64,000 nt of DNA, taken from NCBI RefSeq assembly GCF_001050275.1, contig NZ_BBYA01000012.1, positions 1 through 64,000 on the forward strand. The letters are read 5' to 3'. A program made the translations under genes and the position numbers. The DNA comes from Leptolinea tardivitalis (lineage in GTDB: Bacteria; Chloroflexota; Anaerolineae; Anaerolineales; Anaerolineaceae). How positions within the stretch are numbered: the first letter of the stretch is position 1; every line of letters starts with the position of its first letter. The notes below the pieces were generated by a model. The model worked only from the letters and a program-made list of their open reading frames with translations, did not search any database and was not told the origin of the DNA. This document shows, in pieces, positions 35,608-52,611 of this stretch.

Positions 35608-36507
35608 TTGAGAAAACTAAAGCTGTCTCTGGTTGTATTATTAATTTATCTGACTCTAACCTTCAATTTTGAGCGGTTGGAGTATAAGGCCGGATTCAGC
35701 GGTGTGGGTGTGCATTCTTTTGTCTATGCCCTTTTAATTTCCGCCATTTTGGTGATATTCCTTGTTCCACAGATCCAGCGGTTCTCGATCTTTATTTTCT
35801 TCTTCCTTACTTCGGTTGTATATTTTGCCTTGAGACTTACGTTTTTCAACGATGCTCCCATCTTTGAGGGCATGTCAACGTATGTGACCATAACGGAATT
35901 AGCCTTTTTGATTTTGGGAATAACACTGGCTTACCGTTGCACAAAATATATGGGGGAATTTGAGAAGTTTGTGGAAGAAGTTTACATTCCCAATCTCGGG
36001 AAACGGATTCTCAACATGGAATCGGCTTCTGAGGAAGTAAAGACAGAATTCATTCGCAGCCGGCGGCATCAAACACCCATGGCTCTGCTCGCCGTTCAGC
36101 CTTCTTCATCCTCGAAAAAAGACGAGGAAGAGATTAAAAGGACTGTGGCAGAAATTCAACGTCATATGACCAGTCGATTTATTTCCGCCAGTCTTGCGAA
36201 AATCATCACCAGTGAAGCCCGCCGGTCTGACCTGATCATAAGCCGTGAAGAAGACGGTCAATTCCTGATTCTGTGCCCGGAAACCAAGGGGACCAGCAGC
36301 CTCGTCCTCGCAGAGCGTATCCGAAAGGCAGCCGAAAAGCACCTGGGTTTGCAAATTAATTACGGGATGGCTTCATTCCCCGAAGAAGCCTATACCTTTG
36401 AAGAAATGGTTCAACGAGCCATATTCCAGATGAATAATGTTCCCACCGATATTAAGGTCGTTGAGCCTTCTTCCCTTGTCTACGAGGAAGCGAACAGAAT
36501 CAAATAA
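35608..36507 (+). CDS. membrane protein with degenerate GGDEF domain
   Basis: Residues 1-110 hold four predicted membrane helices. A soluble part follows whose C-terminal 150 residues fit a GGDEF fold: MALLAVQPSSSSKK, SARRSDLIISREEDGQFLIL, then LAERIRKAAEKHLGLQINYGMASFPEEA. The active-site GGDEF is replaced by EDGQF (215-219), so cyclase activity is not expected. An RxxD motif (Arg205-Arg-Ser-Asp208) sits just upstream, near the place of the c-di-GMP inhibitory site, with one extra residue of spacing. It may be a c-di-GMP sensor for the polysaccharide genes that follow. The start is a TTG 43 bp after the promoter -10; no ATG is in frame. Confidence 0.75.
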   Translation: MRKLKLSLVVLLIYLTLTFNFERLEYKAGFSGVGVHSFVYALLISAILVIFLVPQIQRFSIFIFFFLTSVVYFALRLTFFNDAPIFEGMSTYVTITELAFLILGITLAYRCTKYMGEFEKFVEEVYIPNLGKRILNMESASEEVKTEFIRSRRHQTPMALLAVQPSSSSKKDEEEIKRTVAEIQRHMTSRFISASLAKIITSEARRSDLIISREEDGQFLILCPETKGTSSLVLAERIRKAAEKHLGLQINYGMASFPEEAYTFEEMVQRAIFQMNNVPTDIKVVEPSSLVYEEANRIK

Positions 36508-36531: not shown

Positions 36532-37218
36532 ATGAGTAAAAAGCAGCCTCTTCCACCGGAAGCCATTGCAGCCTGGTTAGATAAATTCCCTCCTGAAAAG
36601 AGAATGTTTAAAGGGAAAACATATCTGGTACTTAAGCGGATTATGGATTTATCCATAATCTTTCTTTCAGCCCCTTTCTGGATACCTGTTCTGGCATTGG
36701 TAGCACTCGCCATAAAAATTGATTCTCCCGGCGCACCAGTTCTCTTTATTCAAGAGCGTACTGGAAAAGGCGGGCGCCGGATAAAAATGTATAAATTCCG
36801 CACAATGGTACCCAATGCAGAAGAGTTGAAAATTAAATATGCCGACCGCAATGAACTGCAATGGCCCGATTTTAAGATCACAAACGACCCTCGTATCACC
36901 AGGGTTGGAAAATTCCTTCGGAAAACAAGCCTTGACGAAACACCCCAGTTGTTTAACATCATTAAAGGCGAAATGAGCCTGGTCGGTCCGCGGCCTACCT
37001 CATTCAGTGCAAAGACGTACCGACTATGGCAGACCGAACGATTGGACGTGACCCCCGGGTTAACCGGTCTCTGGCAAATCTTTGGCCGGGCTGCGTATGA
37101 ATTTGATGACCGTCTGCGCCTGGATATCGCTTATATTGACAGACGCTCGATCTGGATGGATATCAACATCCTGTTTGAAACTGTCTGGGCGGTATTTTCA
37201 CAACGGGGTGCTCATTGA
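36532..37218 (+). CDS. initiating phosphoglycosyl transferase (sugar transferase)
   Basis: This monotopic phosphoglycosyl transferase moves a sugar-1-phosphate from a UDP-sugar to undecaprenyl phosphate, the first step of polymer assembly. The 228-residue protein has the re-entrant membrane helix (about residues 38-62), KMYKFRTMVPNAEEL, the catalytic Asp-Glu in TSLDETPQLFNIIKGEMS, SLVGPRP and DVTPGLTGLWQIFGR. It is the short form without the N-terminal membrane domain. It contrasts with the second transferase at 55075-56541, which lacks the Asp-Glu pair. Its stop overlaps the next gene's TTG start. Confidence 0.92.
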   Translation: MSKKQPLPPEAIAAWLDKFPPEKRMFKGKTYLVLKRIMDLSIIFLSAPFWIPVLALVALAIKIDSPGAPVLFIQERTGKGGRRIKMYKFRTMVPNAEELKIKYADRNELQWPDFKITNDPRITRVGKFLRKTSLDETPQLFNIIKGEMSLVGPRPTSFSAKTYRLWQTERLDVTPGLTGLWQIFGRAAYEFDDRLRLDIAYIDRRSIWMDINILFETVWAVFSQRGAH

Positions 37219-38453
37219 CCACAGGGAAAGTGGCCTACATCATGTCAAGGTTTCCCCATCTGCCGGAAACCTTCATACTTCGTGAAATGCTCGAAATGGA
37301 GAACCTGGGCTGGGAGATTGCCCTCTACCCGCTGGTCGTACAGAAACAGCCAGTTTCTCACCCGGCGGTCAGTAAATTTGAGGCGCGTGCCCATCGACTG
37401 CCGTTTATCTCAGGCACCATCCTTTTCGCCAATTTTTCCGAACTGATTCGTCATCCCATTCGATATTTTCGTATCTTTGGGTCCATAATCCACGGGAATA
37501 TATCAAGTGTCAAGTTCCTTATTCGGGCTCTGGCTGTATTCCCCAAATGTGTGCTTATGGCCAGGCTGATGAAAAAAGAGGGGATTCAGCATATTCACGC
37601 CCACTATGCCACTCACCCGGCTCTGGCTGCCTGGATTATCCACCAATTAACGGGCATTCCCTACAGTGTAACCGCGCATGCGCATGATATTTATGTAGAA
37701 AAACCAATGCTGGGAACCAAATTGAGAGATGCCGCCTTTATTGTGGCCATCTCTCAATTCAATCGTGACTACATAACCAATTATCTTGGAAACTCAATCC
37801 GGGAAAAAATCCACGTAATTCACTGCGGGGTAAATCCCGATGACTATTCCATACATCAAGAGAACACGTCTGATAATGTTTTTCACGTACTGAATATCGG
37901 GTCATTGCAGCCGTACAAAGGCCAGAAGTATCTTATTCGCGGGTGTGCCAGTCTGGTTAAACAGGGCATTCCCATCCATTGCACGATAATTGGCGGCGGA
38001 GAATTAAAAGATGAATTAGCCGCACTGATTTCATCTCTGCATCTGGAAAAAACAGTTGAACTTGCGGGCGCCCGCACTCAGGAGGAGGTGGCAGAAATGC
38101 TGCCCCGGGCGGATTGTTATATCCAACCCAGCATCATCACACCCAGCGGGAAGATGGAAGGAATCCCTGTCAGCCTGATGGAAGCTCTGGTCTGTAAAGT
38201 GCCCGTCATCGCCACAAATATTTCCGGTGTTCCTGAACTGGTGCAAGATCAGAAAACGGGATTGCTGATTCCACCTGAAAACGAAGAAGCACTTGTTACC
38301 GCTATACAAACCATATATAATGATCGCATGAAAGCCAGCGAAATGGCCGAAAATGGCCGGCAGTTGGTATTGAGGGAATTTTCACTGATATCGAATGTAC
38401 AAAAGTTGGCGTCGCTGATTCAAGAATCAATGACGACCCCCATCTCAAACTGA
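37215..38453 (+). CDS. GT4-family glycosyltransferase
   Basis: This 412-residue glycosyltransferase has the GT-B fold. The N-terminal half shows MSRFPHLPETFILREM and HIHAHYATHPALAAWIIHQLTGIPYSVTAHAHDIY, typical of capsule and colanic-acid transferases. The donor-binding half has NIGSLQPYKGQKYLIRG and the EX7E motif EGIPVSLMEA, followed by VIATNISGVPELV. It adds a sugar to the lipid-linked repeat unit. It begins with TTG overlapping the previous stop, indicating coupled translation. Confidence 0.9.
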   Translation: MTTGKVAYIMSRFPHLPETFILREMLEMENLGWEIALYPLVVQKQPVSHPAVSKFEARAHRLPFISGTILFANFSELIRHPIRYFRIFGSIIHGNISSVKFLIRALAVFPKCVLMARLMKKEGIQHIHAHYATHPALAAWIIHQLTGIPYSVTAHAHDIYVEKPMLGTKLRDAAFIVAISQFNRDYITNYLGNSIREKIHVIHCGVNPDDYSIHQENTSDNVFHVLNIGSLQPYKGQKYLIRGCASLVKQGIPIHCTIIGGGELKDELAALISSLHLEKTVELAGARTQEEVAEMLPRADCYIQPSIITPSGKMEGIPVSLMEALVCKVPVIATNISGVPELVQDQKTGLLIPPENEEALVTAIQTIYNDRMKASEMAENGRQLVLREFSLISNVQKLASLIQESMTTPISN

Positions 38454-38525: not shown

Positions 38526-39647
38526 ATGGATGAATTATTTGTGAGAGATGTATTGTCTTCTGAATTCCCTCAGTGGGATGATTTAATTCGCCGATCTTCA
38601 CAGGGTTCTGTTTTCCTGCGGTCTGATTTTTTGCAGATGCTCTGTCAATCTGATCCAACATTGAACCTGAAGATTATCGGATGCTTTACTTCTAAGGGAG
38701 ATTTGAGAGCCGGTCAGGCTCTGGTGTATCGTAACTTTTTGGGAATATGCATTGGTTATGATTCCTCTTTTTTCTACAATGGACCGATTCTTCCACTAGT
38801 CAACTATGACAGCCGAGCTCAAAAAGCAGAGATTGAAAACACTTATCTGACCCTGCTCGGAAATGAAATAAGCCGCCGGTTTCCTCATATTTCCCATGTG
38901 ACCCACCCATCCATAACAGATCTTCGTCCCCTCATTCGACTCGGGTGGAAAGCAAATTTACATTACACCCATGTTTGGCACCTTGAGCAAGATCGTGATG
39001 TTTGGAATCGTATCCGTCGGTGTGAACGCCGAATGATTAAAACAGGAGAAGAGAAATTTACGTTTAATACTGAGTGTTGGAATGAAGTAAAGGTTGAATT
39101 CTTGCGTACTTTAAAAATCTGTTATCAACGCCTGGGATGGACACCGGGAAAAACATGGATGGATATCTTTTGCGAACGCATGAAATGGATGGATACCCAT
39201 AACATCAGCCGCATCATAACGGCTCGTGACTGTACCGGAGTATTAATCGGTGCAATAATATGTATTGTAAGTAACGAAGATCATACAGCGTATTTTTGGA
39301 AGATTACCTATGATCCAGATTACATTAAAGATGGCATAATGCCTGCCCTGTGTTATAAATCTTACCAGGCTGTTCCAGAAGATTGTACACGGATCGATTG
39401 GTAAGAAGGGATGACACACGGGCAAAGTATTTTCAAAGACCGGATGGGAACTGACCTCGAACCATATTATGAGATTGTTCCACCAGGCAGCCAGGAGCAC
39501 AACCTGCGGTATATACGGAATGCTCGAATACGGCTAAATAACAAAGTCGGTTATTTCTTGAACATGCTGCAGGGATTTCAACTCAACAAAGATCGATTAC
39601 CAGAGAGTACTGATTTTCGGGCGATTCCCCACCACGCCGATAAATGA
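38526..39647 (+). pseudogene. FemAB-like acyltransferase split by in-frame TAA (copy 1)
   Basis: The frame reads through 292 residues to TAA 39402-39404 and continues in the same frame from 39405 to TGA 39647. The continuation (EGMTHGQSIFKDRMGTDLEP and onward) is the C-terminal element expected of FemAB/GNAT-fold proteins. The family ends with a basic segment after a FK-rMGt-xxxPYY pattern. The combined length of 373 codons fits the family. FemAB proteins transfer aminoacyl groups onto peptidoglycan, and relatives modify polysaccharide or peptide products. A single nonsense mutation or an assembly error explains the split. It converges on copy 2. Confidence 0.8.
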
Positions 39648-39690
39648 TTCGCTTGGAGTTTCACCCCTATAGGCGGATGATTCAAAGCGA

Positions 39691-40656
39691 TTAATTCTTT
39701 GCGAAATACTTACATGTGAATCGGGGAACCAACCGGCATCCCAGGTCGTTGCGCAATTGAGCGCACACCGGACTGTGCGATTTCCCCAGATCAAAAAACC
39801 GGGTGGTATCTTCCAGGTGGGTGTATGTTTTCCAGTAAAGGGCAGCCAGAATTTCTGGAGTGTAATCCCTGATTGCAGAGAAATCACACAACAGATAGAC
39901 TGCGCCATTGTGAGGACTATGTACTGTGAGGATAGTCTCAACGCTGTTACCAGATTGATCCACCAGTGAATATAAATGAGAGAGGTTGTGATCTCTCATC
40001 CATTGAATCCTATTTCTTAAAACCTGAACATTTCCTTTAAAAATCCCACACGTCAATTCACTCCGAAGGGTGAGTCGTGTAAACAATTCATTGTAACGCC
40101 GGTCTGATTGATCCTCATCGAAATGATATCTGTTTTCAATACCCCGGATTTTTTCCTGCTGTAGTGGATTAATAGCCTGCCATGCTTCTTCCTCAGACTT
40201 TTTCTCCCATATATGGTTGTAAGAGGGCACTATCTTCCACTGGTTGAAATTGTATGGACTTACATTCCATATGTCCGGGGAATTTTCAATGACAATAGTT
40301 TCCAATTCTTTCGCAGCGTCTTGTAGCAGGCAGGAAAAAACACAAAAAGATGCATACGTGTGAGATGTTTCTTGATAGTGGATTTCAGGACTGAATAACG
40401 GTCCGTTGTATCCGCACGAGTGCAGATCAGCGATTTTCTTTCCCCGGCGGACAGTTGACCTTAAAATCAGGCCTCCAGAAAGGTTCCCCTCGTTTTCATA
40501 AAAAAATGGGTGAACCGAACTTGCCTCGGGTTCGGTTTCAATAAGCATCTGGAACCATTCTGGTGAATGAAACAATGTAGCCTGAGGAGAGGTTTGCAGA
40601 AGCAAATCCCATTTCTCTTGAAGCGATGGATCAATTTCAGGAAAGTTACACTTCAT
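39691..40656 (-). CDS. FemAB-like acyltransferase (copy 2)
   Basis: This 321-residue protein has the same FemAB/GNAT-like architecture as its neighbours: TLFHSPEWFQMLIETEPEA in the N-terminal half, GGLILRSTVRRGKKI, a central helix-rich region and YLLCDFSAIRDYTPEILAAL, with RFFDLGKSHSP near the end. It is uninterrupted but ends shortly after residue 310, shorter than copy 1 read through. The acceptor is unknown; sitting in a polysaccharide locus suggests modification of the polymer or of cell-wall peptide. It follows copy 3 by 9 bp on the minus strand. Confidence 0.75.
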   Translation of the reverse strand: MKCNFPEIDPSLQEKWDLLLQTSPQATLFHSPEWFQMLIETEPEASSVHPFFYENEGNLSGGLILRSTVRRGKKIADLHSCGYNGPLFSPEIHYQETSHTYASFCVFSCLLQDAAKELETIVIENSPDIWNVSPYNFNQWKIVPSYNHIWEKKSEEEAWQAINPLQQEKIRGIENRYHFDEDQSDRRYNELFTRLTLRSELTCGIFKGNVQVLRNRIQWMRDHNLSHLYSLVDQSGNSVETILTVHSPHNGAVYLLCDFSAIRDYTPEILAALYWKTYTHLEDTTRFFDLGKSHSPVCAQLRNDLGCRLVPRFTCKYFAKN

Positions 40657-40665
40657 TGCAAAACC

Positions 40666-41679
40666 TCACCGTTCAGATTGCCGGGTAAGAGCCCATTTTG
40701 CTCTCTGGAGATTCTTATATAATGACAACCATTTTTGGGCATTGGGAGTTTCTAAAACCCAGAATGGGTGCATGGAAGTTCCCATTGAATCTTTATAAGA
40801 ATAGATAGACTGATTCGCTGCTTCACCAATATCAAGACAGGTATAGTCTCGGCACAGATCAAGTGCTGCGAAGTAATATATTTAGGGCGAAATTGCATTA
40901 TCTTGAATCGTGCGGTCATAAGCAACAAGCCAGCCGTAGGCAGTTTTGTTGCACGGACTGAGAATGCAGGCTATGGAATTGGCCAGTTGACCTTCTTGTG
41001 TTCGACAGGTGTAAAGACGGAAAATTCCTTGAGATTTCATCCATTCGACGCGTGCACGAAATGCTTTAATCCAACTGTTAGTCGGCTGCCAGGAAAACCG
41101 GTCAAGGTCGCGAAGGTAAAGGGACAAGAAGTCCTCAAAATCCCCTTCCTGTTCAACAGAAAATAGATAATCTTTCATAGCACGCCGGACGTAACGTTTT
41201 TTCCGATGCATGGTATTGAGCATTTCTTCTGGATCGCGGATATCCCACATATGGGCATAGCGCGGTTTTCCATTCCAACCCTGATCAAAGAAAGCAGAGG
41301 CATCGTCTAAATGCGGACTGCATTCCAAACGAAGATATGGGAAAAATTTTCGTATCCCGCTTGCCAGGTTCGATAGGATTTCGTAATACCCGGCACTATG
41401 GTTGGGATAATTCCCCGAAATAATCGGGGAACTGGTGTAGAAAATACTCAGTATGTTTTGAATTCGGATCTTTTTTAAAGCTTTTTTATGAAGAATGGCA
41501 ATTCCACCCACCAATTCACCATCTTTATAACACCCAAGTCTGAATAGATTTAATTCTGGATCAGTTTTTTCCCAGGTTTTCAGAAAACTATCTGAAAGAA
41601 AGACAGATTGTTCAGGAGAAGATGAGACCAGATTGTCCCAGAGAGTAATTTCGCTATAAGGTATCTCTCTTATTTCCAT
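40666..41679 (-). pseudogene. FemAB-like acyltransferase split by in-frame TAA (copy 3)
   Basis: From ATG 41679 (MEIREIPYSEITLWDNL) the frame runs to TAA at 40884-40882 after NAISP, then continues in the same frame for 71 codons to TGA at 40666. The continuation reads IYYFAALDLCRDYTCLDIGE and then YSYKDSMGTSMHPFW, matching the C-terminal pattern of copy 1 (LDxG, FKDRMGT). So one nonsense codon interrupts a gene of about 337 codons. The restored end lies 9 bp before the start of copy 2. An upstream extension to 41736 has no support. Confidence 0.8.
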
Positions 41680-42592
41680 AAAATAAAACCCCGCAATAGA
41701 TCGTAGTACTTCTATATAAAAAGTTATTATCCGCACATCGAGGAAAGTTTACCCAATTCAGTACTATCTACCCGGTATTGCCAGATAATGAAAGAAGAAA
41801 CCATCTACCAGATTTTACTTCTCTGGTAATTATACATACAACAACTCTCATGCATGCATCCATCAGCTGATCTTTATACGGTAACTGTCTTCAGTAAAGC
41901 AGAAATATTTCAAATAATCAAACGAATCGGATAAATTAAAGGGTAATTATTTAATTCAGGATGTATTGACGTTATACAGAATTGAATTTAAGTTGTGCGT
42001 TGACTAGTTTTAATGTAAAATATTGTTGGAGAAGATTCACTAGTACGAAGACAATTACATATAGATAATGCTGCAAGTGTTATATAACCAGCTTTCACCT
42101 TTTTTGAAGGTTAAATCGACAGTTGGTGAATAGGTAGACAGCAGTGGATAATAGGATTTGGGTTTTCAATTTCCACGCCATCAACTTTGTAATGAGGATG
42201 CAATGATTTGTTGGTTCCCGGAATAAAATGCAAGTTGATAGAAATTGATACTTGTTATCGAGGAACCGATCGACGTAGCAGAAAACTTCGAATAGGACTC
42301 GTCTCTGAACTGATGCAGACATAAGCAGGGTTTTGAATGAGTTCTATTTGTGATTTAACAAAGCACCCAATTTTACAATAGTATTTTCTTCAAAATGTTA
42401 CCATAAAAAGAAAGTTAATCCGGCTGGTTTTCGAAAAAAACAGTTCAAGTTTTAAGAAAGTTTGACGATGACAATAACGCAGAAAGGCAGGTAGTTCGGT
42501 AATAAATTCGTTTTATTCAAATTATCCAGGGTATTCGTACCAGGGTTTCTTGTAAGGGTTTTCCTTTTTGTCAGGTTGCAACGGAGCGTAAA
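41680..42592. other. long AT-rich intergenic region, no gene seen
   Basis: More than 900 bp without a convincing gene, unusual for this dense window. It separates the minus-strand FemAB pair from the plus-strand Wzz operon. TTGAC boxes occur at 41966 and 42000, but neither has a good -10 at the right distance. The minus-strand frame 42095-42322 has no ribosome site or recognisable pattern. No tRNA-like fold or inverted repeat with clear structure was found by eye. It may carry the operon's promoter, a regulatory RNA or a decayed gene. Confidence 0.5.
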
Positions 42593-43681
42593 ATGGAAAT
42601 TAAATTCTATCTAAAAATGCTTCAACGGCGATGGTGGGTTGTGTTGATCACAATTCTGGTGGCCTTGAATGTAGCTCTTATTTCTGCTTATTTTACTAAA
42701 CCGATCTACAAGACCAGCGTCCGTTTTTCCATCAGTCCAAGTGCAACAGAAATGGCTACAGGGCAGGAAACACTTGACAGCCTCGGAACACTTGATTCTC
42801 GAACCATAGTACAAACATTTGCTGAATTCCTCAACAGCGATCGAATTTACGACGAAACCGTAAAATCCATGAACCTTGATCCAGCCAGTCTTAATGATTA
42901 CACGCGAACAACGGTGGTTCTTCCTGATGCCAACATCCTTGAGTTGACAATGCAGGGATATGACCCCAAACTGGTGGCATTACTGGCAAATAATACTGGC
43001 CTGAATGCCATCACGCATATTAAGCAGCTCTACAAGGTCTATGACATCAATGTGCTGGATCCTGCACTGGTGCCCACCATCCCCATTTCACCGAAACCCC
43101 TTCAAGATGCCGGTGTAGCCGCTCTTCTCGGTCTGGTTATTGGTGCTGCGCTGGCTATTTCCAGTGAGCAGATCCGCCTTCCCCTTGAATCATACCGTCA
43201 GCGTGCCAGTCTTGATCCGGTTTCGATGGTTTTGAATCACCGCTATTTTGTCAGCCGGATTGATGAATTAATTGCCAGCAATCCATCTGAGGCTGTTTCC
43301 GTCGGTCTGGTCCGTTTGAACAACCTGAGAGATCTAATCGATATCATGCCGCAAAATGTTGTCCAACAACTCATGCGTCAGGTGGCCGCAACACTCCTCA
43401 AGGAATTGCGCGGAAGCGATCTCGTAGGCCGCTGGAATGAGACAACCTTCTCCTTGTTACTGCCGTCAACCAATGAGACGGCTGCGCAACGGACTATGGA
43501 GCGTATCCGTCTGGCATTGGACAAACCTGTGACATTGGAAAACTATGGTGAAACCATTGAACTTGATCCCTGTGTCAGTGTTTCATCGTATCATGCAGGG
43601 GATACAACTGCTGACGTAACTGAACGAGCTGAAGCTCTGCTCGCACCCCGCCGAGCTCCCATCGAAAAAACCCCTAGATAA
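42593..43681 (+). CDS. Wzz chain-length protein fused to a degenerate GGDEF domain
   Basis: Residues 1-200 are a Wzz/polysaccharide co-polymerase: a first membrane helix (WWVVLITILVALNVALISAY, about 14-33), an extracytoplasmic part, the proline-rich PTIPISPKPLQDAGV and a second helix (about 177-196). The cytosolic C-terminus (about 205-345) fits a GGDEF fold: ASLDPVSMVLNHRYF (like DxLTGLxNRR), ELRGSDLVGRWNETTFSLLLP and AERIR-like MERIRLALDKP. GGDEF is replaced by NETTF (282-286), so it should not make c-di-GMP. The inhibitory-site RxxD is intact (Arg273-Gly-Ser-Asp276) at the canonical 5-residue spacing. It may gate polymer length or export by binding c-di-GMP. It heads the Wzy-Wzx operon. 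Confidence 0.85.
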   Translation: MEIKFYLKMLQRRWWVVLITILVALNVALISAYFTKPIYKTSVRFSISPSATEMATGQETLDSLGTLDSRTIVQTFAEFLNSDRIYDETVKSMNLDPASLNDYTRTTVVLPDANILELTMQGYDPKLVALLANNTGLNAITHIKQLYKVYDINVLDPALVPTIPISPKPLQDAGVAALLGLVIGAALAISSEQIRLPLESYRQRASLDPVSMVLNHRYFVSRIDELIASNPSEAVSVGLVRLNNLRDLIDIMPQNVVQQLMRQVAATLLKELRGSDLVGRWNETTFSLLLPSTNETAAQRTMERIRLALDKPVTLENYGETIELDPCVSVSSYHAGDTTADVTERAEALLAPRRAPIEKTPR

Positions 43682-43723: not shown

Positions 43724-45217
43724 ATGACAATACAACCATGGGAGAAATCATCGTCGCTTAAGTGGCCGATAATCGTCATCGGTGTGCTGGCTATCAGCTT
43801 TGGCGCATTCATTGGGATGATTGTGGGGTATTCGCCGAATGTGTATTTACCCATTGCGGCTGCTGTGGGTTTTATTGTGGCGATTCTTACCCTGGCCAAC
43901 CTTGAATTCGGGTTGCTGGCCTTTGTCTTCATGACCTATATCCGGCTGTATAACATCATAGAATTACATGGCGGCCCTTCGTTACAATTACCGTTTATGG
44001 CATTCTTAGTTCTCTTGATTCTGATTCACTGGGTCATTGAACGGCATTTTCCCGAAATTTCTATAAAGCTGGTGGTGCTTTTTTCCATTTTTGGAGTGAG
44101 TACGTTTCTGTCTTATCTGTATGCAGGAAACATGGTAGATGCCCAGGATGCTCTGGAAACATTTATTAAAGGAGGAAGCGTCGCCGTAATTGTTGGCTTA
44201 ATTTTTACCAAAAAGGAATATATGCGGGGAATCGTATGGACCTTAGTCCTGGTCGGAGGTATCCTCGGTTCAGTCAGTGTTTTCCAGTATTTAACCTCTT
44301 CCTTTACCAATGATTTCTGGGGATTTGGTACGGCCGTTGTCGAAAATATTGTGGGTGGTACCAATGATTACCGCCTGTCAGGGTCACTGGGAGATCCCAA
44401 TCTGTTTGCCATGGTCATGGTTGTACTGGTTCCGCTGGCTTTGGAAAGGGCGTTTACAGAAAAGAAAAAAATATTAAAAATCCTGGCCATATATGCTTTG
44501 ATTGTGATTGTAATGACCATCGTTTTTACTTTTTCACGAGGCGGATTTCTTTCACTGCTGGTAGTGATTGGTTTTCTGGTTCTATGGAAGAAGCCACCGT
44601 TGACGTACCTGTTAATAGGGCTGGTCTTATTCATTCTGAGTTTCTCGATCCTTCCGCCGTCATACACTCAGCGCATGGCTACCCTGACAGATGTATTCAG
44701 CCAGGATACAACTGAAATGCGTAATGAGGTGTCGTTCCGTGGACGTTTCAGCGAAGCCGGTGTAGCCTGGATTATGTTCCGCGATCATCCGATCATTGGT
44801 GTTGGGCCAGGCAATTACAATTCTGAATATATGAATTATTCACGCCAACTGGGGTGGGATCCGCGGGTAGAAGCCCGTGGTGCGCACAATCTCTACCTTG
44901 AGGTGGCCTCTGAACAGGGAATTGTAGGATTGACAATCTTTCTGTTCATTCTCTATTCCGTGTTTGCCGGCTTGGTCCGATCATCACGCAAGTTTAAAAA
45001 ATTAAACCAACCGGGATTAGCCGATATGTCCATCGCCCTTATGATTGGATTTGCCGGATATTGCACGGCGTCAATTTTTCTGCACAATATTTTTCCGTAT
45101 TATCTGTGGATGTTGATTGGAATTGCTTTCTCGCTCGAAAAGATTGCTGATAATGAAATTAAAAATCCTCAGATTGGGATAACAACACCTGTCATCGATG
45201 GAAGCCTAAATGAGTGA
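43724..45217 (+). CDS. O-antigen polymerase/ligase family protein (Wzy/WaaL-like)
   Basis: This 497-residue membrane protein has about 11-12 helices and a large external loop in the Wzy_C region. Diagnostic features are FTFSRGGFLSLLVV, the loop motif GVGPGNYNSEYMNY and RGAHNLYLEVASEQGIVGL with the conserved AHN and EQG elements. Such proteins polymerise lipid-linked repeat units or ligate polymer to an acceptor. Placed between a Wzz-like and a Wzx-like gene, polymerase is more likely. A GGGGAGGG site precedes the ATG. Confidence 0.88.
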   Translation: MTIQPWEKSSSLKWPIIVIGVLAISFGAFIGMIVGYSPNVYLPIAAAVGFIVAILTLANLEFGLLAFVFMTYIRLYNIIELHGGPSLQLPFMAFLVLLILIHWVIERHFPEISIKLVVLFSIFGVSTFLSYLYAGNMVDAQDALETFIKGGSVAVIVGLIFTKKEYMRGIVWTLVLVGGILGSVSVFQYLTSSFTNDFWGFGTAVVENIVGGTNDYRLSGSLGDPNLFAMVMVVLVPLALERAFTEKKKILKILAIYALIVIVMTIVFTFSRGGFLSLLVVIGFLVLWKKPPLTYLLIGLVLFILSFSILPPSYTQRMATLTDVFSQDTTEMRNEVSFRGRFSEAGVAWIMFRDHPIIGVGPGNYNSEYMNYSRQLGWDPRVEARGAHNLYLEVASEQGIVGLTIFLFILYSVFAGLVRSSRKFKKLNQPGLADMSIALMIGFAGYCTASIFLHNIFPYYLWMLIGIAFSLEKIADNEIKNPQIGITTPVIDGSLNE

Positions 45218-46670
45218 AAAACATGAACTGGTTGACAAAATAGTTAGCGGCGCGTTGTGGATTTACCTGGCAACCTATGCCAGCAAAGTACTTGTTTTTA
45301 TCACCACCATCATTCTGGCCAACCTGATCACCAAGAGCGATTTTGGCGTAATCGGTTACACCTTCATCATCACCAGTGTTCTGGATTCAATCTATGATCT
45401 GGGGATTGGAGCGGCATATATCTATCATAAAGATGAAGATGGTCTGGCCGATACAGCCTTCTGGTTGACGGTCTTATATTCTCTGCTGGTCGCTTTAATC
45501 GTCTGGATCACCGCCCCCCTGGTGGCCGCTTATTTTAATGATAACCGGGCCATCGATGTCATTCATATTTATTCTGTCTTTTTCCCGGTCACAGCACTTG
45601 GGAATACCCATGAGTTTATCCTTCGCAAACGCCTTGCCTTCAAACAGAATATGGTTCCTACAATAGCCAGTTCTCTGGTGAAAGGGATTATTTCCATCGT
45701 TCTGGCTCTCCTTGGTTTTGGGTACTGGAGCATCATTTTCGGGCAAGTGATCGGTGCCGTAGTTTCAACAATTGCTTATTGGGTTGTGGTTCCCTGGCGT
45801 CCTGTTTTCACAATCAACCGATCGCTGGTGCCATCCCTGCTCCTTTACGGGATAAAAACATCTTTTTTGAATTTAATGATCGCCCTGCTTCTTAACATTG
45901 ACTATCTTTTCACCGGGCATTATCTGGGCGCGGAAGAGTTGGGTGTTTATACACTGGCTTTCCGCATCCCAGACATGATCATTACTCAGTTTGGTGTGGT
46001 AATTAACAGAGTCACATTCCCGGCATTTGTTAATATCCGTGATCAGGAACAGAGTCTGGCACATGGATTTGTTATTACATTGAAGTTTATCTGTGCGGCG
46101 ATTCTGCCGACCGGAGCTGGAATTATTCTTGTATCTGAACCTTTCTGGCGAACCTTCTTTCCTGATACATGGCTTGAAGCGGTGCCTGTTATGAGCATCA
46201 TCACTGTGTACACCATCATGGTTACTCTGGTGATTGGATCGGAATCGGTTTACAAAACCATGGGAAAACTGCGAACCATGATCAAGCTCTACCTGATCCG
46301 GTTGATTATGATTGCTCCCGCCCTTTACTTTGCCACCACAGTGATCCGTTCTATTGAAGCCGTCGCCTGGGCACAGGCCGGGGCGGCGTTCATCCTTTGC
46401 GTGATTAACATGGTGGTTACAACGAAGCTCATCAAGATTTCGATCCATGAAATCATGAAAATCATGCAGCCATCCGTTATCAGCACTCTGGTCATGTCAA
46501 TTGTTGTCTGGGGGCTTCTTCAAATCTGTGGTTCCATTGCTCCTCTTGCACAGATCATTGTATCCATCCTGGTTGGCCTGGGAGTTTACGGGGTAATGCT
46601 CAACTGGCAGGACCATTCCATTGTTCAGGAAAGTTTTGCCACATTTCGGAGAATTTTTTCTTTATCCTGA
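45210..46670 (+). CDS. Wzx-type lipid-linked oligosaccharide flippase
   Basis: This 486-residue membrane protein of the MOP/PST family has about 14 helices. The N-terminal SGALWIYLATYASKVLVFIT, LITKSDFGVIGYTFI and the later TGHYLGAEELGVYTLAFRIP are typical of polysaccharide flippases (RfbX/Wzx, Polysacc_synt). It flips the undecaprenyl-linked repeat unit across the membrane for Wzy. Its start overlaps the preceding stop by 8 bp, so the two are translated together. Confidence 0.9.
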   Translation: MSEKHELVDKIVSGALWIYLATYASKVLVFITTIILANLITKSDFGVIGYTFIITSVLDSIYDLGIGAAYIYHKDEDGLADTAFWLTVLYSLLVALIVWITAPLVAAYFNDNRAIDVIHIYSVFFPVTALGNTHEFILRKRLAFKQNMVPTIASSLVKGIISIVLALLGFGYWSIIFGQVIGAVVSTIAYWVVVPWRPVFTINRSLVPSLLLYGIKTSFLNLMIALLLNIDYLFTGHYLGAEELGVYTLAFRIPDMIITQFGVVINRVTFPAFVNIRDQEQSLAHGFVITLKFICAAILPTGAGIILVSEPFWRTFFPDTWLEAVPVMSIITVYTIMVTLVIGSESVYKTMGKLRTMIKLYLIRLIMIAPALYFATTVIRSIEAVAWAQAGAAFILCVINMVVTTKLIKISIHEIMKIMQPSVISTLVMSIVVWGLLQICGSIAPLAQIIVSILVGLGVYGVMLNWQDHSIVQESFATFRRIFSLS

Positions 46671-46731: not shown

Positions 46732-47868
46732 ATGAAAGTTGCCATGATTTCACACGGATATGCACCCAGAATTGGAGGAGCCGAACGTCAGTTGGGTGCG
46801 GTTGCTCCTGTGCTTAAGGAAAAAGGAATAGATGTTTCTGTACTTACCCGTCAACTTCCGGGAACTGAACCATACGAAGTGATAGACGGTGTACCGGTAT
46901 ACCGTCTGCCCGTACCAGGATTCAAAGCACTGGCCTCCCTGGCATTCACCTTTTTCGGTTTGAAGACACTGAGAAAAATTAACCCTGATATTATTCATGC
47001 CCATGAGTTGATTTCTCCATCCACTACAGCATTACTGGCGCATTACCTGTTTAAAAAACCCATTGTCCTTAATCCGCATTCAAGCGGGCCATTTGGTGAT
47101 GTTCAAAAAATGAATCACAAATTTCTGGGGCAATGGCGGCTAAAGCAGTTTTGCCAGGAAGCCGCTGCTTTCATTGCGATCAGCGGCGAGATTGATGCCG
47201 AACTGGCCGGTCTGGGGGTTCCCCGATCCCGGCGGCTGCAAATCTCAAATGGCATTGACAGCCGACGGTTTAAGAAACTTGATGATGCCGAACGATTGGA
47301 ATGCCGACGGAAACTGGGTTTACCGGCAGACAGCCGGATTGCGGTGTTTGTCGGCAGGCTGGTTCCCATCAAACGCATTGATATTCTTCTTGCTGCATGG
47401 AAAAATGTGAACCGCATAGATCCACAGGCGCTGCTCTTGCTGATAGGCAGTGGACCGTTGGAAGACGAATTGAAAAAAGATGCACCTGCCGGTGTGCTTT
47501 TCTGCGGCAGCCATGAAGATGTGGCACCCTACCTTCAAGCATCTGACCTGTTTATCCTGACGTCTGATTCAGAAGGCATTCCAGTGTCTCTTTTAGAGGC
47601 CATGTCTTGCGAATTGCCCTGCCTGGCCACTGCCGTTGGGGGTATCCCCGATGTCATCACCCATGAGAAATCCGGATGGCTGGTTCCGGCTGGTGATGTT
47701 GAAGCCGTTCAACTGGCTGTGCAATTGTTGTTCAATGATCCGGCATTGCGGCTGGCATTAGGCAAACATGCGCGGGAAACTATTCTTGAAAAATACACCG
47801 TTGATACTATGGCGCTTCGTTTGAAGAGCCTTTATGAAACATTGATTGCCAACAGGGGGATGCCATGA
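46732..47868 (+). CDS. GT4-family glycosyltransferase
   Basis: A 378-residue GT-B glycosyltransferase. The N-terminus MISHGYAPRIGGAERQLGAV is the classic GGAE glycine loop of GT4 enzymes. Acceptor-side HAHELISPSTTALLAH follows, and the donor side has VFVGRLVPIKRIDILLAAW, LLIGSGPLEDEL and the EX7E motif EGIPVSLLEAMSCELP. It adds one sugar to the repeat unit. Its stop overlaps the start of the GT2 gene by 4 bp. Confidence 0.93.
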   Translation: MKVAMISHGYAPRIGGAERQLGAVAPVLKEKGIDVSVLTRQLPGTEPYEVIDGVPVYRLPVPGFKALASLAFTFFGLKTLRKINPDIIHAHELISPSTTALLAHYLFKKPIVLNPHSSGPFGDVQKMNHKFLGQWRLKQFCQEAAAFIAISGEIDAELAGLGVPRSRRLQISNGIDSRRFKKLDDAERLECRRKLGLPADSRIAVFVGRLVPIKRIDILLAAWKNVNRIDPQALLLLIGSGPLEDELKKDAPAGVLFCGSHEDVAPYLQASDLFILTSDSEGIPVSLLEAMSCELPCLATAVGGIPDVITHEKSGWLVPAGDVEAVQLAVQLLFNDPALRLALGKHARETILEKYTVDTMALRLKSLYETLIANRGMP

Positions 47869-49064
47869 TCGTGTTCTTTTTCTGGTTATCCATCTTCATC
47901 ATTGTCTATACCTATGCCGGTTACCCGGCTTTGCTCTATCTACTGGGAAAAGCCTGCAGGAAAACGAAGGAATATGAAGACTACGAACCATCCATCACAT
48001 TGTTAATTGCTGCCTATAATGAGGAAGATTTTATCCGCCGCAAATTGGATAATTCTCTCAACCTGGATTATCCGTCAGAAAAGTTACAGATTCTGGTTGT
48101 GGCAGATGGTTCGACAGATAAAACAGCCGAAATTGTGCAAACCTATGAAAGCAGGCATGTGGAACTGTGTTTCCAACCTCAGCGGCAGGGAAAACTGGCT
48201 GCCATTGACCGGGCTATGGCTTTTGCCCGGGGAGATATTGTCCTGTTTTCTGATGCAAACAATATTTATGAACCGGGAACGTTGAAATCCCTGGTTGTTC
48301 CATTCTCTGATCCAACTGTTGGTGGAGTGAGTGGAGCCAAACATATCATCAAGGATGAAAATACACTGGGAGAATCAGAAGGACTGTATTGGAAATATGA
48401 ATCCTTCATAAAGAAGCAGGAAACCCGCCTGGGTTCTTGTAGCGGTGTGAGCGGAGAAATCTTCGCCATCCGGCGGGCTTTGTATGAGCCGGCGCCCCGC
48501 CACATCATCAATGATGATTTCTACCTGGCCATGCGTTTGTTACGCCGGGGATATCGCATTGTCTATGTGCCTCAGGCCCGATCCTTTGAACGGACATCTT
48601 ACTCGAAAAAAGATGAGATCATCCGCCGCAAACGCATCAACGCTGGCCGTTACCAGGCTTTGCGGTATTTCAGACAGATCTTTCCCCTTAAATATCCACG
48701 GCTCATGTGGCAGGTGATTTCTCACAAAGTTTTCCGCCTGCTGCTGCCATTTGCCATGATTGTCGCCTTCTTAACCAACGGACTGGCGCTTGTTCCCGGG
48801 TTAAGTAAGGGCGAACCTTCTATCTTACGGTTGACATTTCCTTTTAATTGGATAATCTTTAGTATACAAAGCCTGTTTTATCTACTGTCTGTCATCGGAA
48901 ACATATCTGCCGGTAAGCAGGGGAAACTCGTTTATCTACCCACGTTTCTGGTAAATAGCAATATTGCCTCATTTCAAGGCTTCCTTCAATTCATTAAGGG
49001 TAATGAGACCGCTTTATGGGAAAAGGTGAAGCGGGCTGACAATGGGGAACAGATCAATGCCTAG
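47865..49064 (+). CDS. membrane GT2-family glycosyltransferase
   Basis: This 399-residue processive-type GT2 enzyme has an N-terminal membrane helix (about 2-20), then a GT-A domain: LLIAAYNEEDFIRRKLDNSL, LVVADGSTDKT, the DxD-like LFSDANNIYEP, a TED-like NDDFYLAMRLLRRG, and the (Q/R)xxRW-like RRKRINAGRYQ. Three or four C-terminal membrane helices follow (about 285-380). It resembles hyaluronan/IcaA-type synthases but lacks the size and PilZ domain of BcsA. It may form a polymer backbone or add a single sugar. The orphan BcsB-like gene lies two genes downstream. Confidence 0.88.
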   Translation: MIVFFFWLSIFIIVYTYAGYPALLYLLGKACRKTKEYEDYEPSITLLIAAYNEEDFIRRKLDNSLNLDYPSEKLQILVVADGSTDKTAEIVQTYESRHVELCFQPQRQGKLAAIDRAMAFARGDIVLFSDANNIYEPGTLKSLVVPFSDPTVGGVSGAKHIIKDENTLGESEGLYWKYESFIKKQETRLGSCSGVSGEIFAIRRALYEPAPRHIINDDFYLAMRLLRRGYRIVYVPQARSFERTSYSKKDEIIRRKRINAGRYQALRYFRQIFPLKYPRLMWQVISHKVFRLLLPFAMIVAFLTNGLALVPGLSKGEPSILRLTFPFNWIIFSIQSLFYLLSVIGNISAGKQGKLVYLPTFLVNSNIASFQGFLQFIKGNETALWEKVKRADNGEQINA

Positions 49065-50193
49065 TTCAACTCCGCGGTTGTTTGTTTCATTAATCGGTGA
49101 TATTCAGAATGAACCTTCTGCCCAGGTGAAGTATGGGCATTTCTTGAAAGCGTTAGAAACCCAATTTAAACTGGTCGTTTATGATGCCACCCTCCGCGGA
49201 TTTCCACGGTTAGTCAATCAGATGCAGGTTTTCCATCCTGATATAACCCTGTGGAAAGAGCGGTTTTATCAAAATGTGCCTGCGTTCAAAATGCGCTCTG
49301 AAAAAATGGCCGCCGCCCTGAAAAAGGAAATCGGCCGTGTGGATGCCATTTTCCAGATCGGTGTTTTATGGGATACCCTGTGGAAGGATGCTCCGATACC
49401 CAGTGTGATTTACACAGATTACACGAGCACTCTGGCCAGCCGTAAACCCGAATGGGGACGCAGCCCTTTGAGCCCGGCTGATCTGGCAGCCTGGCTGTCA
49501 ATGGAGAAGAAGGCCTACCAGCGGTCATCCCACATTTGCACACGTGGTCAATATGTGCGCCAATCTGTCATCAACGATTATGGAATTCCAGAAACAAAAG
49601 TAACCGCCATTGGCGGAGGGGTCAATTTTGGTGCCCTTCCTGAACCATCCAACAGACCTTTATCGTCTTCACCGACCATTTTGTTTATTGGCAAAGATTT
49701 TCTTCGTAAAGGTGGAGATGTGCTTATTCGTGCTTTTCAGAAAGTCCGCAAATCAGCACCGGATGCCCGGCTGGTGATGATGACGGCCGGAATCCCACAG
49801 GAGCAGTATGATCTGACCGGGGTTGAAATCATTGAACCCACCTGGAACCGCGAAAAGATCTGTGAGTTATACCGTGGAGCAGATTGTTTTGTCCTGCCCT
49901 CACGTCTGGAAACATGGGGTGATGTCATTCTGGAAGCCATGTCTTTTGGACTACCGTGCATCGGGGTTTCCGGAGAAGCCATGAGTGAGATTATTGAAGA
50001 CGGCAGAACCGGGTTGGTCATTCCTCCTAACGATGAAGACGCATTGGAAAAAGCTCTCCTATGGCTGCTATCAAACAGGGAGAATGCCAGACAATATGGT
50101 TCTGCCGCTCGCGAGCGTGTTGAAACGCTGTATACATGGGAAGTTGTTTCAAAAAAATTGGTTCCAATTGTCATATCGGCCATTCGTTCATAA
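49042..50193 (+). CDS. GT4-family glycosyltransferase
   Basis: A 383-residue GT-B glycosyltransferase. The donor-binding half shows ILFIGKDFLRKGGDVLIRAF, VEIIEPTWNREKICELYRGA and the EX7E motif ETWGDVILEAMSFGLPCIG. The N-terminal acceptor half is more divergent than in its neighbours. The frame opens at ATG 49042 and overlaps the GT2 stop by 23 bp; ATG 49057, overlapping by 8 bp, is an equally good start. It belongs to the same operon. Confidence 0.88.
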   Translation: MGNRSMPSSTPRLFVSLIGDIQNEPSAQVKYGHFLKALETQFKLVVYDATLRGFPRLVNQMQVFHPDITLWKERFYQNVPAFKMRSEKMAAALKKEIGRVDAIFQIGVLWDTLWKDAPIPSVIYTDYTSTLASRKPEWGRSPLSPADLAAWLSMEKKAYQRSSHICTRGQYVRQSVINDYGIPETKVTAIGGGVNFGALPEPSNRPLSSSPTILFIGKDFLRKGGDVLIRAFQKVRKSAPDARLVMMTAGIPQEQYDLTGVEIIEPTWNREKICELYRGADCFVLPSRLETWGDVILEAMSFGLPCIGVSGEAMSEIIEDGRTGLVIPPNDEDALEKALLWLLSNRENARQYGSAARERVETLYTWEVVSKKLVPIVISAIRS

Positions 50194-50235: not shown

Positions 50236-52611
50236 ATGAGAAGAATAATCCCAATTTCTATTATTACAATTTTGGTACTCCTGGTCTTTTCTGTTGTACC
50301 TGCTGCCGCCCAGGTGCCGATTTCTACACCAACACCCGGGGTAAGCCCAACTCCCACAAAATTCCCGCTGCAACAGGGTACGGATGTATATTCATTCAGC
50401 AATCTGGGCAAGATTGATCAGATTATGAATGGACCGTACGATTCCCTGTGGGTTAATTTCAGCGTACCCAACAACTGGCAATTAAACGATGGTGCTTCCA
50501 TTCAATTGCATTTGAATAACAGCTTCAACACATCGTCAACATTAAGTGAAGCTGAACTGATTAAAGCCACGGGTGCCACCCTAGACGTTGAATTCAATGG
50601 TGTATGGTTGACAACGTTGCTGCTCAACTGGAGCGGAGAAAAAGTAATCAATGTTCCCATCAGCCCCCGTTCCATTTTCAACAGCACCAATGGTCAACAT
50701 TATGTAGCTCTTTACCTGAATGCGGCCATTGACTGCAACATCGATCATCAGACTACTGTGGCAGTACTGTCAGATTCAAGCCTGAAATTGTCTCATGATA
50801 TGGTTGTGCCGAAGGTGAACCTTTCGCAATTCCCCATCCCTTTGTATCAAGACAGCGCCTTCTTTGCCAATACCATTATTGCACCTTCTGCCGCCGCTGC
50901 GCCTACCCCGACGGCCAGCCTGAACGGCCAGAATATTAATACAGGCCTGTTCAGTGCCACCACCCAGGTTGCTGTACCCCCCGCCGTAATGGTCACACGC
51001 GACAACCCGGATCTGGCCGAGCTGCAATCGGCGTTGATCATCAATGCCGGACTTGGAAGAATTTCTAACGGCAATTTACCGCTGACCACCATACCCATCA
51101 GCAAATTGACTGAAGACATCAAGAAATCTGCCCACTTGATTTTTGTGGGAAAGGGACCTGAATTTTCTGTATTAAAGAGTGCCAATCTGCCAACAGTGTA
51201 TGATGGCGTTTCGTTTAAAACCCCGAAAGCTGTGGCAGATGACGGCTTGATTCCGGAAGTGGTATCGCCGTGGGATACATCGAAAGTAATCTTGATTGTG
51301 AGTGGTGACAGTGATGCCGGTATCTTGAAGGCGGCCAAAGCGGTCAGTTCAGGTGTCATCATGCCGAGTGACCGCAATGATCTGGCGATTGTATCCAACG
51401 TCATCCCGGGCAAGCTGATAACCACCGTCAATGATGATCGCACACTGGCGGATCTCAAGTATGACACTATCAGGCTGGATGGAACCGGGGTGCGTAACTA
51501 CAAATATCTGTTCCTGATTCCACCGGGACAGATGCTGCGGAATGATGCTTACCTGAAGCTGTCTTTCACGAATTCTCCGTTCCTTGACCAGGGCCAATCG
51601 GCATTATCTGTGTATATCAATAACCAGGCTATCGGCGGAGTTCGTTACTCGGTTGAAAGCTCACGGTCCATTGTAACAGAACAGATCAACATTCCCGGTT
51701 ACCTTCTGCGGGCCGGTATGAACCAGTTAACCATAGAAACAGATCACAAACCGATGAATTACTGCTCTGGTTCAGTTACCTCCAATCTTTGGACGAGCAT
51801 CTCCAACCAATCACTCCTGCATATTCCCCTTACTCCGGTGACGCCGGGAATTGTCAAGCAAACCACCCTGGCCAATTTCCTTGATTTCTTGAGCACTTCG
51901 CCCACGTTGGAATCGACCGGATTTATTGTGGCCAAAAATTCTCCCGATGCGATTAAAACGGCTGCCCAGATTGCCTATCAACTTGGCAGCGTGATGACTG
52001 GTGACATGGTGGAATTGGATGCGGCCTATGCAGATGCTGTTCCGGAGGAATTCAAAAAAGATCACGACCTTGTCATTATTGGAAGAGCCAGTCAGTTGCC
52101 TATTCTGGCTGATCTGGGAAGCAACCTCCCGGCCCAGTTTGATAAGGGAAGTGATGTAGCCCAGGAAACGGTGTTCCGGGTTATTTATCGAATTCCGCCC
52201 AATATCAGTGTCGGGTACCTGGAATTACTTGCAACCCCGTGGAATTCGGCGCGCAACATTCTGGCAGTTCTTGGATCAACAGATGAAGGTCTGGGTTACT
52301 CTGCCAATGCACTGCTGGTAGATCAAACCCAGAAGAAACTGGGTGGCAATTTTGCCGTTATTCGTAATGATCAGGTTCTCACCGGCGATACGCGCCTGGG
52401 TACTGGAACCGGCAACATTTCATCCACACTGATACCTGGAGCCACCATACTGACTCAGGTTCCCACCGACCTGCCCACACTGGCACCAAAGGAAGCGATT
52501 CCATTTGCGAACCGTACAGATTGGATTTTACCGGCTGTAGCTGGTTTCTCCATTTTGACTGTGCTGATCATCGTTGTTGTTATTCTGACATCCAGGCGAA
52601 AGAACCTGTAA
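50236..52611 (+). CDS. BcsB-like protein, no BcsA nearby
   Basis: This 791-residue exported protein has a signal peptide (about 1-26, ending AAA), a Pro/Thr-rich segment, two BcsB-type modules and one C-terminal membrane helix (about 765-785). Resemblance to BcsB, the extracytoplasmic partner of cellulose synthase, rests on alternating carbohydrate-binding jelly-roll segments (LDVEFNGVWLTTLLL, LSVYINNQAIGGVRYS), flavodoxin-like segments (LIFVGKGPEFSVLK, LVIIGRASQLPILADLGS) and a membrane anchor. BcsB normally pairs with BcsA; only the 399-residue GT2 is nearby. It may escort the polymer outside the membrane. Confidence 0.82.
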   Translation: MRRIIPISIITILVLLVFSVVPAAAQVPISTPTPGVSPTPTKFPLQQGTDVYSFSNLGKIDQIMNGPYDSLWVNFSVPNNWQLNDGASIQLHLNNSFNTSSTLSEAELIKATGATLDVEFNGVWLTTLLLNWSGEKVINVPISPRSIFNSTNGQHYVALYLNAAIDCNIDHQTTVAVLSDSSLKLSHDMVVPKVNLSQFPIPLYQDSAFFANTIIAPSAAAAPTPTASLNGQNINTGLFSATTQVAVPPAVMVTRDNPDLAELQSALIINAGLGRISNGNLPLTTIPISKLTEDIKKSAHLIFVGKGPEFSVLKSANLPTVYDGVSFKTPKAVADDGLIPEVVSPWDTSKVILIVSGDSDAGILKAAKAVSSGVIMPSDRNDLAIVSNVIPGKLITTVNDDRTLADLKYDTIRLDGTGVRNYKYLFLIPPGQMLRNDAYLKLSFTNSPFLDQGQSALSVYINNQAIGGVRYSVESSRSIVTEQINIPGYLLRAGMNQLTIETDHKPMNYCSGSVTSNLWTSISNQSLLHIPLTPVTPGIVKQTTLANFLDFLSTSPTLESTGFIVAKNSPDAIKTAAQIAYQLGSVMTGDMVELDAAYADAVPEEFKKDHDLVIIGRASQLPILADLGSNLPAQFDKGSDVAQETVFRVIYRIPPNISVGYLELLATPWNSARNILAVLGSTDEGLGYSANALLVDQTQKKLGGNFAVIRNDQVLTGDTRLGTGTGNISSTLIPGATILTQVPTDLPTLAPKEAIPFANRTDWILPAVAGFSILTVLIIVVVILTSRRKNL

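Follow-up and report, generated by a model that had tools for sequence, protein, structure and literature searches.

A Wzz-type co-polymerase with a GGDEF domain is encoded in a Wzx/Wzy locus

The stretch of DNA analysed here (64,000 nucleotides of Leptolinea tardivitalis, hereafter the window) carries on its plus strand a polysaccharide locus, the features of which are listed in Table 1. One of its genes encodes a protein with an N-terminal Wzz domain and a C-terminal degenerate GGDEF domain (hereafter the fusion), which probably determines how long a bacterial surface sugar chain grows. A preliminary description of the DNA gave correct coordinates and residues for this gene, and a wrong choice of strand or frame was rejected, as the plus-strand frame is open throughout and the one minus-strand frame translated contains stops.

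Table 1. Features of the polysaccharide locus, in order of position in the window
Feature	Position	Strand	Evidence
Second candidate receptor: four predicted membrane helices (the last long) and a degenerate GGDEF domain	35608-36507	+	Model, alignments
RxxD (R205-D208) of the second candidate receptor	36220-36231	+	R in 35/35 and D in 35/35 aligned members
Bacterial sugar transferase (PF02397), likely starting the repeat unit	36532-37218	+	E 3.2e-63
Glycosyltransferase (PF00534)	37215-38453	+	Pfam
Wzz/CpsC-type polysaccharide co-polymerase with degenerate GGDEF domain (the fusion)	42593-43681	+	362 aa, ATG start; Pfam, NCBIfam, AlphaFold2
Wzz domain (PF02706), residues 3-92	42599-42868	+	Pfam E 1.6e-9, 38.4 bits (cut-off 25.5)
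Second long helix, residues 169-206, running into the GGDEF domain; membrane helix by position	43097-43210	+	AlphaFold2 model
Degenerate GGDEF domain (PF00990), residues 205-350	43205-43642	+	Pfam E 4e-15, 56.4 bits (cut-off 23.8)
Retained I-site motif R273-G-S-D276	43409-43420	+	phmmer alignment, homologue counts
Lost active-site motif, NETTF at residues 282-286	43436-43450	+	Translation; GG[DE]EF in 0/35 homologues
R304, place of the second I-site arginine of PleD	43502-43504	+	phmmer alignment; R in 33/35 homologues
Wzy-type polymerase (PF04932), next gene after the fusion	43724-45217	+	E 4.6e-25
Wzx-type flippase (PF13440)	45210-46670	+	E 1.9e-67
Three glycosyltransferases	46732-50193 (46732-47868, 47865-49064, 49042-50193)	+	Pfam
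BcsB-like protein (PF03170), conserved locus member	50236-52611	+	E 7.8e-40

The preliminary description had read the product as a two-helix Wzz protein that continues into a GGDEF-like domain with NETTF in place of GGDEF. Pfam placed both domains above cut-off, and NETTF is present in the translation. The AlphaFold2 model of the fusion (68 sequences, mean pLDDT 88.6, mostly above 90 in the GGDEF part) showed two long helices, residues 2-34 and 169-206, the second of which is continuous with the GGDEF fold; in this prediction the two would be the membrane helices around the outside domain of a co-polymerase. Structure alignment of the model with PleD in complex with c-di-GMP (9g86_A) gave a Z score of 22.0 and an rmsd of 2.5 Å over 161 residues, and Foldseek matched it to 2v0n_A with an E value of 5.5e-12. 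Sequence profile and fold thus both identify the C-terminal part as a GGDEF domain, as the preliminary description had anticipated. The VIA-align matches span mainly the GGDEF part (residues 193-362), so that the Wzz identity rests on the Pfam match and the two helices. Neither Foldseek nor VIA-align listed PelD among its matches, which counts neither way. The nearest NCBIfam model to the N-terminal part was the CpsC family TIGR01006, with 55.7 bits, far under its cut-off of 296. No P-loop tyrosine kinase domain was found in the fusion by Pfam.

In the phmmer alignment, R273 and D276, the latter five residues N-terminal of NETTF, fall on the RxxD of PleD, and R304 falls on the first R of the PleD sequence AERIR. 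Arg273-x-x-Asp276 therefore occupies the place of the c-di-GMP inhibitory site (I-site) that had been proposed for it. The three places correspond to the I-site residues R359, D362 and R390 of PleD, with which PleD binds c-di-GMP.

The Wzy gene starts 42 bp downstream of the fusion gene and is overlapped by the Wzx gene, so that the fusion is encoded together with Wzy and Wzx, as is a co-polymerase. Related loci (see below) show an order like that of the window: receptor, sugar transferase, glycosyltransferase, fusion, Wzy, Wzx, glycosyltransferases and BcsB. Among the 76 loci with at least 2 kb of downstream sequence, the next gene of the locus set within 1.5 kb of the fusion encoded Wzy in 41 and a BcsB-like protein in 35, and a BcsB-like gene was present somewhere in 54 of the 59 related loci whose downstream sequence reached 9 kb or more. 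Of the 62 loci extending 4 kb or further upstream, 31 encoded the second candidate receptor there on the same strand. Because the fusion precedes BcsB in 35/76 loci and the receptor lies upstream in only 31/62, the partner of the fusion may vary. In the window, a BcsB-like protein is encoded inside a Wzx/Wzy locus. Between the glycosyltransferase and the fusion, the window also holds three genes (38526-41736), two of them on the minus strand and one with a sub-threshold match to Acetyltransf_6; relatives of these three were found in only 1 of the 80 related loci (L058).

The fusion is a recurrent family in Chloroflexota

A protein search of 101 genomes of the organism's own family yielded 18 full-length copies of the fusion in 17 genomes, its own genome counted. 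When 400 genomes of the phylum were searched with a profile, the full-length fusion was found in at least 20, together with one copy cut by a contig end (G468); in several genomes of the same search, a relative of the Wzz part stood alone or continued into other sequence. A chance fusion, or one confined to a single genome, was ruled out by its presence in 17/101 family genomes and at least 20/400 phylum genomes. A scan of named genomes added 80 further fusion loci (of 100 confirmed), including loci in Longilinea, Levilinea, Pelolinea and Herpetosiphon; the cultured species Herpetosiphon aurantiacus and Longilinea arvoryzae are among the carriers. In an alignment of the window protein with 67 of these 80 loci, Pfam matched both Wzz and GGDEF in all 68 members. 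Two of the fusion genes (L063 and L087) lie on contigs labelled as Nitrosomonas and Planctomycetota metagenome assemblies; these contigs may be mis-binned, since their gene order resembles that of Chloroflexota loci.

The pattern used in the named-genome scan, L[RK]GNDx[VI][GA]RW, spans the I-site, and the 80 scan loci are therefore unusable for counts of I-site conservation; they were used for gene order, the kinase search, structure alignments and the second protein. Counts at the I-site were made from the family and phylum searches only (101 and 400 genomes), which are free of this motif bias and gave 37 matches, 35 of them distinct. Trees and column tables of 95 rows include motif-biased rows, and the conclusions drawn from them were repeated on the unbiased 35 copies, except for the parsimony tree, which was built from 28 of the 35.

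The I-site is retained while the active site is lost

As a check, the preliminary description had named a search for the Wzz-GGDEF pairing across Chloroflexota, with RxxD not conserved in homologues counting against its reading; in the unbiased set, RxxD was conserved and GGDEF was lost. The GG[DE]EF motif was present in 0/35 distinct copies, and 27 different five-letter motifs were found in its place. By comparison, the position of D276 was D in 35/35 copies, that of R273 was R in 32/35 and K in 3/35, and that of R304 was R in 33/35. On the parsimony tree, R273 changed once, D276 not at all and R304 twice, whereas each of residues 282-285 changed 10-13 times, the median over 147 columns being 10. 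The active-site motif has therefore changed about as often as a typical column, and the I-site is nearly frozen.

The fusion was compared with 36 intact GGDEF domains (those readable by pattern among 50 loci) from nine genomes of the phylum, its own included; 33 of the 36 cover the motif columns. Several catalytic columns that are invariant in the enzymes are gone from the fusion (the first D of D-x-D, K, N, H and G-D, 0/35 each), and the second D of D-x-D is left in 6/35 copies. Two columns of the catalytic region are partly kept, namely D in the D250 region (26/35) and the R of the N-x-R region (18/35). The combination of GG[DE]EF with the GTP- and metal-binding residues, which marks an active diguanylate cyclase, was thus absent from the 35 copies. 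The inner letters of RxxD differ from enzyme to enzyme (3.2 and 3.5 bits) but are mostly G and N in the fusion (G at position 274 in 32/35 copies and N at position 275 in 31/35), and the place of R304 holds R in 33/35 fusion copies compared with 18/33 canonical domains (Fisher p 1.8e-4, uncorrected for phylogeny). Further constrained places were W281, T293, F286 and L272, which are structural or have no assigned role.

RxxD was present in all 19 readable canonical GGDEF domains of the own genome (20 loci) and in 33/33 of the nine-genome set. Given this baseline, the presence of RxxD was not by itself taken as evidence, and part of its retention may be due to inheritance or structure; the evidence lies in RxxD having stayed as the active site was lost. 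A count by eye in 19 further degenerate GGDEF domains, taken from eight phylum genomes, found RxxD kept in 11 and lost in 8. These domains were drawn from 20 stretches together with L032 and the second candidate receptor itself, leaving out L205 and L207 (no aligned row), L209 and L212 (canonical) and the fusion. Judged from these alignments, loss of RxxD is possible in dead GGDEF domains and its retention is common.

The fusion thus has the pattern of a degenerate-GGDEF I-site receptor, with RxxD and the second arginine kept and the active site lost, apart from K for R in 3/35 copies and loss of R304 in 2/35. RxxD kept, its inner letters mostly G and N, and R304 more conserved are what would be expected if the inhibitory site had become the working site. 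The K for R273 occurs in L016, L017 and L031, and R304 is replaced in the most divergent pair of copies, by K in L131 and by S in L132. In one genome (G048), an R copy of the fusion (L009) coexists with a K copy (L031). The own genome also encodes, at L032 (C14:70568-70987), a third dead GGDEF protein in a 404-residue frame, with RNVD kept, the GGDEF motif lost and an N-terminus that looks membrane-like by eye; a similar protein is encoded in G011 (L204).

Kinases and c-di-GMP proteins in the genome

In the own genome, two other co-polymerases, of 547 and 539 aa, were found, each with a Wzz and a P-loop domain, the latter at the cytosolic end, where the fusion has its GGDEF domain; their P-loop domains match the exopolysaccharide kinase family over cut-off. 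A BLAST search (1e-4) with the kinase parts of these two proteins found no kinase relative in the available sequence of the 80 fusion loci, although four added kinases, serving as positive controls, were found by both queries; many of the 80 loci end at contig ends, and a kinase gene may lie further away. This result strengthens the comparison drawn in the preliminary description, according to which the GGDEF domain stands where many systems have a tyrosine kinase. The own genome contains 24 GGDEF matches (the fusion included), four EAL matches (three over cut-off) and two PilZ matches, and it has a c-di-GMP system.

A second, PelD-like protein is encoded upstream

The second candidate receptor (35608-36507) is annotated here with a TTG start, its true start being uncertain. 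Taken alone, it lies under the Pfam GGDEF cut-off (18.7 vs 23.8 bits), and its best profile match to a solved GGDEF protein was 1.7e-9. The model of this protein showed a long helix at residues 89-126 with the GGDEF part matched from about residue 127, and gave Z scores of 17.6 to 6eib_C and 17.2 to c-di-GMP-bound GcbC (5euh_A). The predicted layout, four membrane helices followed by a degenerate GGDEF domain with RxxD, is that of PelD. No GAF domain was found between the helices and the GGDEF domain by Pfam or in the model, and the protein was therefore not filed as PelD; by analogy, it may work like PelD.

Relatives were found by similarity to the second protein within the scan loci, not by a motif of its own. 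The 35 aligned proteins, the window's included, have a mean column identity of 31% and five invariant columns, two of which are R205 and D208; where the second arginine would stand, position 237 holds R in 33/35 and K in 2/35. A likeness to the logic of PelD, which the preliminary description had suggested for the fusion, is strengthened by the presence of this PelD-like protein within the same locus.

A phylum search with the second protein gave matches in at least 151 of 400 genomes at 1e-10, most of which are weak matches, probably to ordinary GGDEF domains, and in at least 23 at 1e-46 or better. These 23 genomes comprise 17 of the 21 fusion genomes (the cut copy of G468 counted), five genomes in which the related Wzz frame has only 231-243 residues (G249, G265, G416, G428 and G434), and G389. 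RxxD was kept in 22 of the 23 strong matches, the exception being Y for R in L235 (G335). The fusion and second-protein genes lie 176 kb apart in G211 and on different contigs in G335, and in G425 the receptor is on a contig with a Wzz of 226 residues and not with the fusion. In G265, a similar gene order includes a plain Wzz of 230 residues that lacks GGDEF; this suggests that the locus already had the receptor before the fusion arose.

A proposed c-di-GMP receptor on the co-polymerase

We consider it likely that the fusion is a co-polymerase whose GGDEF domain has turned into a c-di-GMP receptor, in which binding of the ligand at R273, D276 and R304 would alter the co-polymerase ring and polymerisation by Wzy. 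The interpretation given in the preliminary description is, overall, partly supported. In the mechanism proposed here, c-di-GMP would bind to the three residues, probably as a stacked dimer as in PelD, and would link or re-orient the GGDEF domains of neighbouring subunits in the ring. Since the second membrane helix runs straight into the domain, such a re-orientation would change the ring, and the changed ring would alter polymerisation by Wzy. By analogy with PelD, activation would be expected at high c-di-GMP, the polymer being made, or made longer, under this condition. The PelD-like candidate receptor encoded upstream would probably act at the same machine. A Wzx/Wzy pathway would thereby be switched by c-di-GMP, the output being either length or an on/off amount of polymer.

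Alternative explanations

The same residues might have been kept as a structural relic, the dead GGDEF domain serving only to hold or dimerise the co-polymerase subunits and RxxD persisting as part of the fold or through recent inheritance. Such a relic is in keeping with RxxD in all 19 readable canonical domains of the own genome and with several other retained columns that look structural (L272, F286 and L290). It nevertheless appears unlikely, given that RxxD shows 0-1 changes in a domain that has otherwise largely diverged, that RxxD is lost in 8/19 other degenerate domains, and that R304 is more conserved than in active enzymes; in addition, solved GGDEF folds exist for proteins titled I-site mutants (4urq and 6zxb). 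We regard it as quite improbable that the conserved patch binds some other partner, either a protein, such as Wzy or the PelD-like protein, or a nucleotide other than c-di-GMP. The new family-specific constraints near the site (G274, N275, W281 and T293) would fit a partner of this kind, the standing of which is raised slightly by the fact that the next gene is BcsB-like, not Wzy, in nearly half of the loci. However, three conserved charged residues stand at the c-di-GMP-binding places of PelD and PleD, the second protein keeps the same three (R205 35/35, D208 35/35 and R237 33/35), and most nucleotide and metal columns of the A-site are lost.

That the domain is a weak diguanylate cyclase with an unusual motif is hardly credible. 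Some degenerate motifs are reported to be active, as in the AGDEF enzyme described in the available text of PMC3974145, but the GGDEF motif occurs in 0/35 copies of the fusion with 27 motifs in its place, and most catalytic columns are at 0/35, the second D being at 6/35. An active cyclase was rejected on the absence of GG[DE]EF from 35/35 copies and the loss of most catalytic columns.

Relation to known systems

Wzc has two membrane helices around an outside domain and a cytosolic regulatory module after helix 2. The fusion resembles Wzc-type Wzz-kinases and CpsC/Wzd in the two predicted membrane helices around an outside domain, and differs from the Wzc type in its cytosolic module, where GGDEF takes the place of a P-loop kinase. 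In Wzc systems, the linking or turning of cytosolic domains in the ring is done by tyrosine phosphorylation. We see about an even chance that, in a Wzx/Wzy system of Chloroflexota, c-di-GMP replaces this phosphorylation as the switch of the co-polymerase ring and acts through two dead-GGDEF receptors encoded in one locus, one fused to Wzz and the other a PelD-like protein that predates the fusion.

According to the available text of the sources, R367, D370 and R402 of Pseudomonas aeruginosa PelD are needed for c-di-GMP binding and pellicle formation (PMC2170427), and R363, D366 and R395 of Bacillus cereus PelD for c-di-GMP binding (PMC7112168). PelD thus resembles the fusion in having a degenerate GGDEF domain on an exopolysaccharide membrane protein, with an RxxD and a later arginine that bind c-di-GMP in PelD (available text of PMC2170427, PMC7112168 and PMC8461298). 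A GAF domain and four membrane helices set PelD apart from the fusion, as do its role in Pel synthesis and its lack of Wzz; the second protein of the window is nearer to the PelD layout than the fusion is, but without the GAF domain. Alg44 would share with the proposed role of the fusion the direct control of a co-polymerase by c-di-GMP (available text of PMC8461298), although it has a PilZ domain and works with Alg8 in alginate synthesis, not in a Wzx/Wzy pathway. YdaK of Bacillus and BcsE are, like the fusion in its proposed role, GGDEF-type exopolysaccharide receptors, with c-di-GMP at the I-site, whereas no fusion to Wzz is mentioned for them in the available text of PMC9800504 and PMC8461298.

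The preliminary description knew of no described example, and no Wzz-GGDEF fusion was found in the available text of the open-access literature searched. In those portions of open-access papers that name GGDEF, Wzz and chain length determinant, these are separate genes where described. A 2021 review of direct c-di-GMP control of exopolysaccharides includes cellulose, alginate and Pel among its systems, and the words Wzy and Wzz have 0 occurrences in its available text (PMC8461298). Receptors with a dead GGDEF domain are a known kind of protein, as are co-polymerases; what appears to be new is the two in one polypeptide. If the proposed receptor role is true, c-di-GMP acting directly on a co-polymerase would connect signalling to polymer output in the widespread Wzx/Wzy pathway in a new way.

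At two loci (L245 and L246), a PelD-like receptor is encoded beside a plain Wzz of 230-232 residues, with a Pfam Wzz match for L245. Similar loci with and without a GGDEF domain on Wzz, such as these, provide natural comparisons for the fusion.
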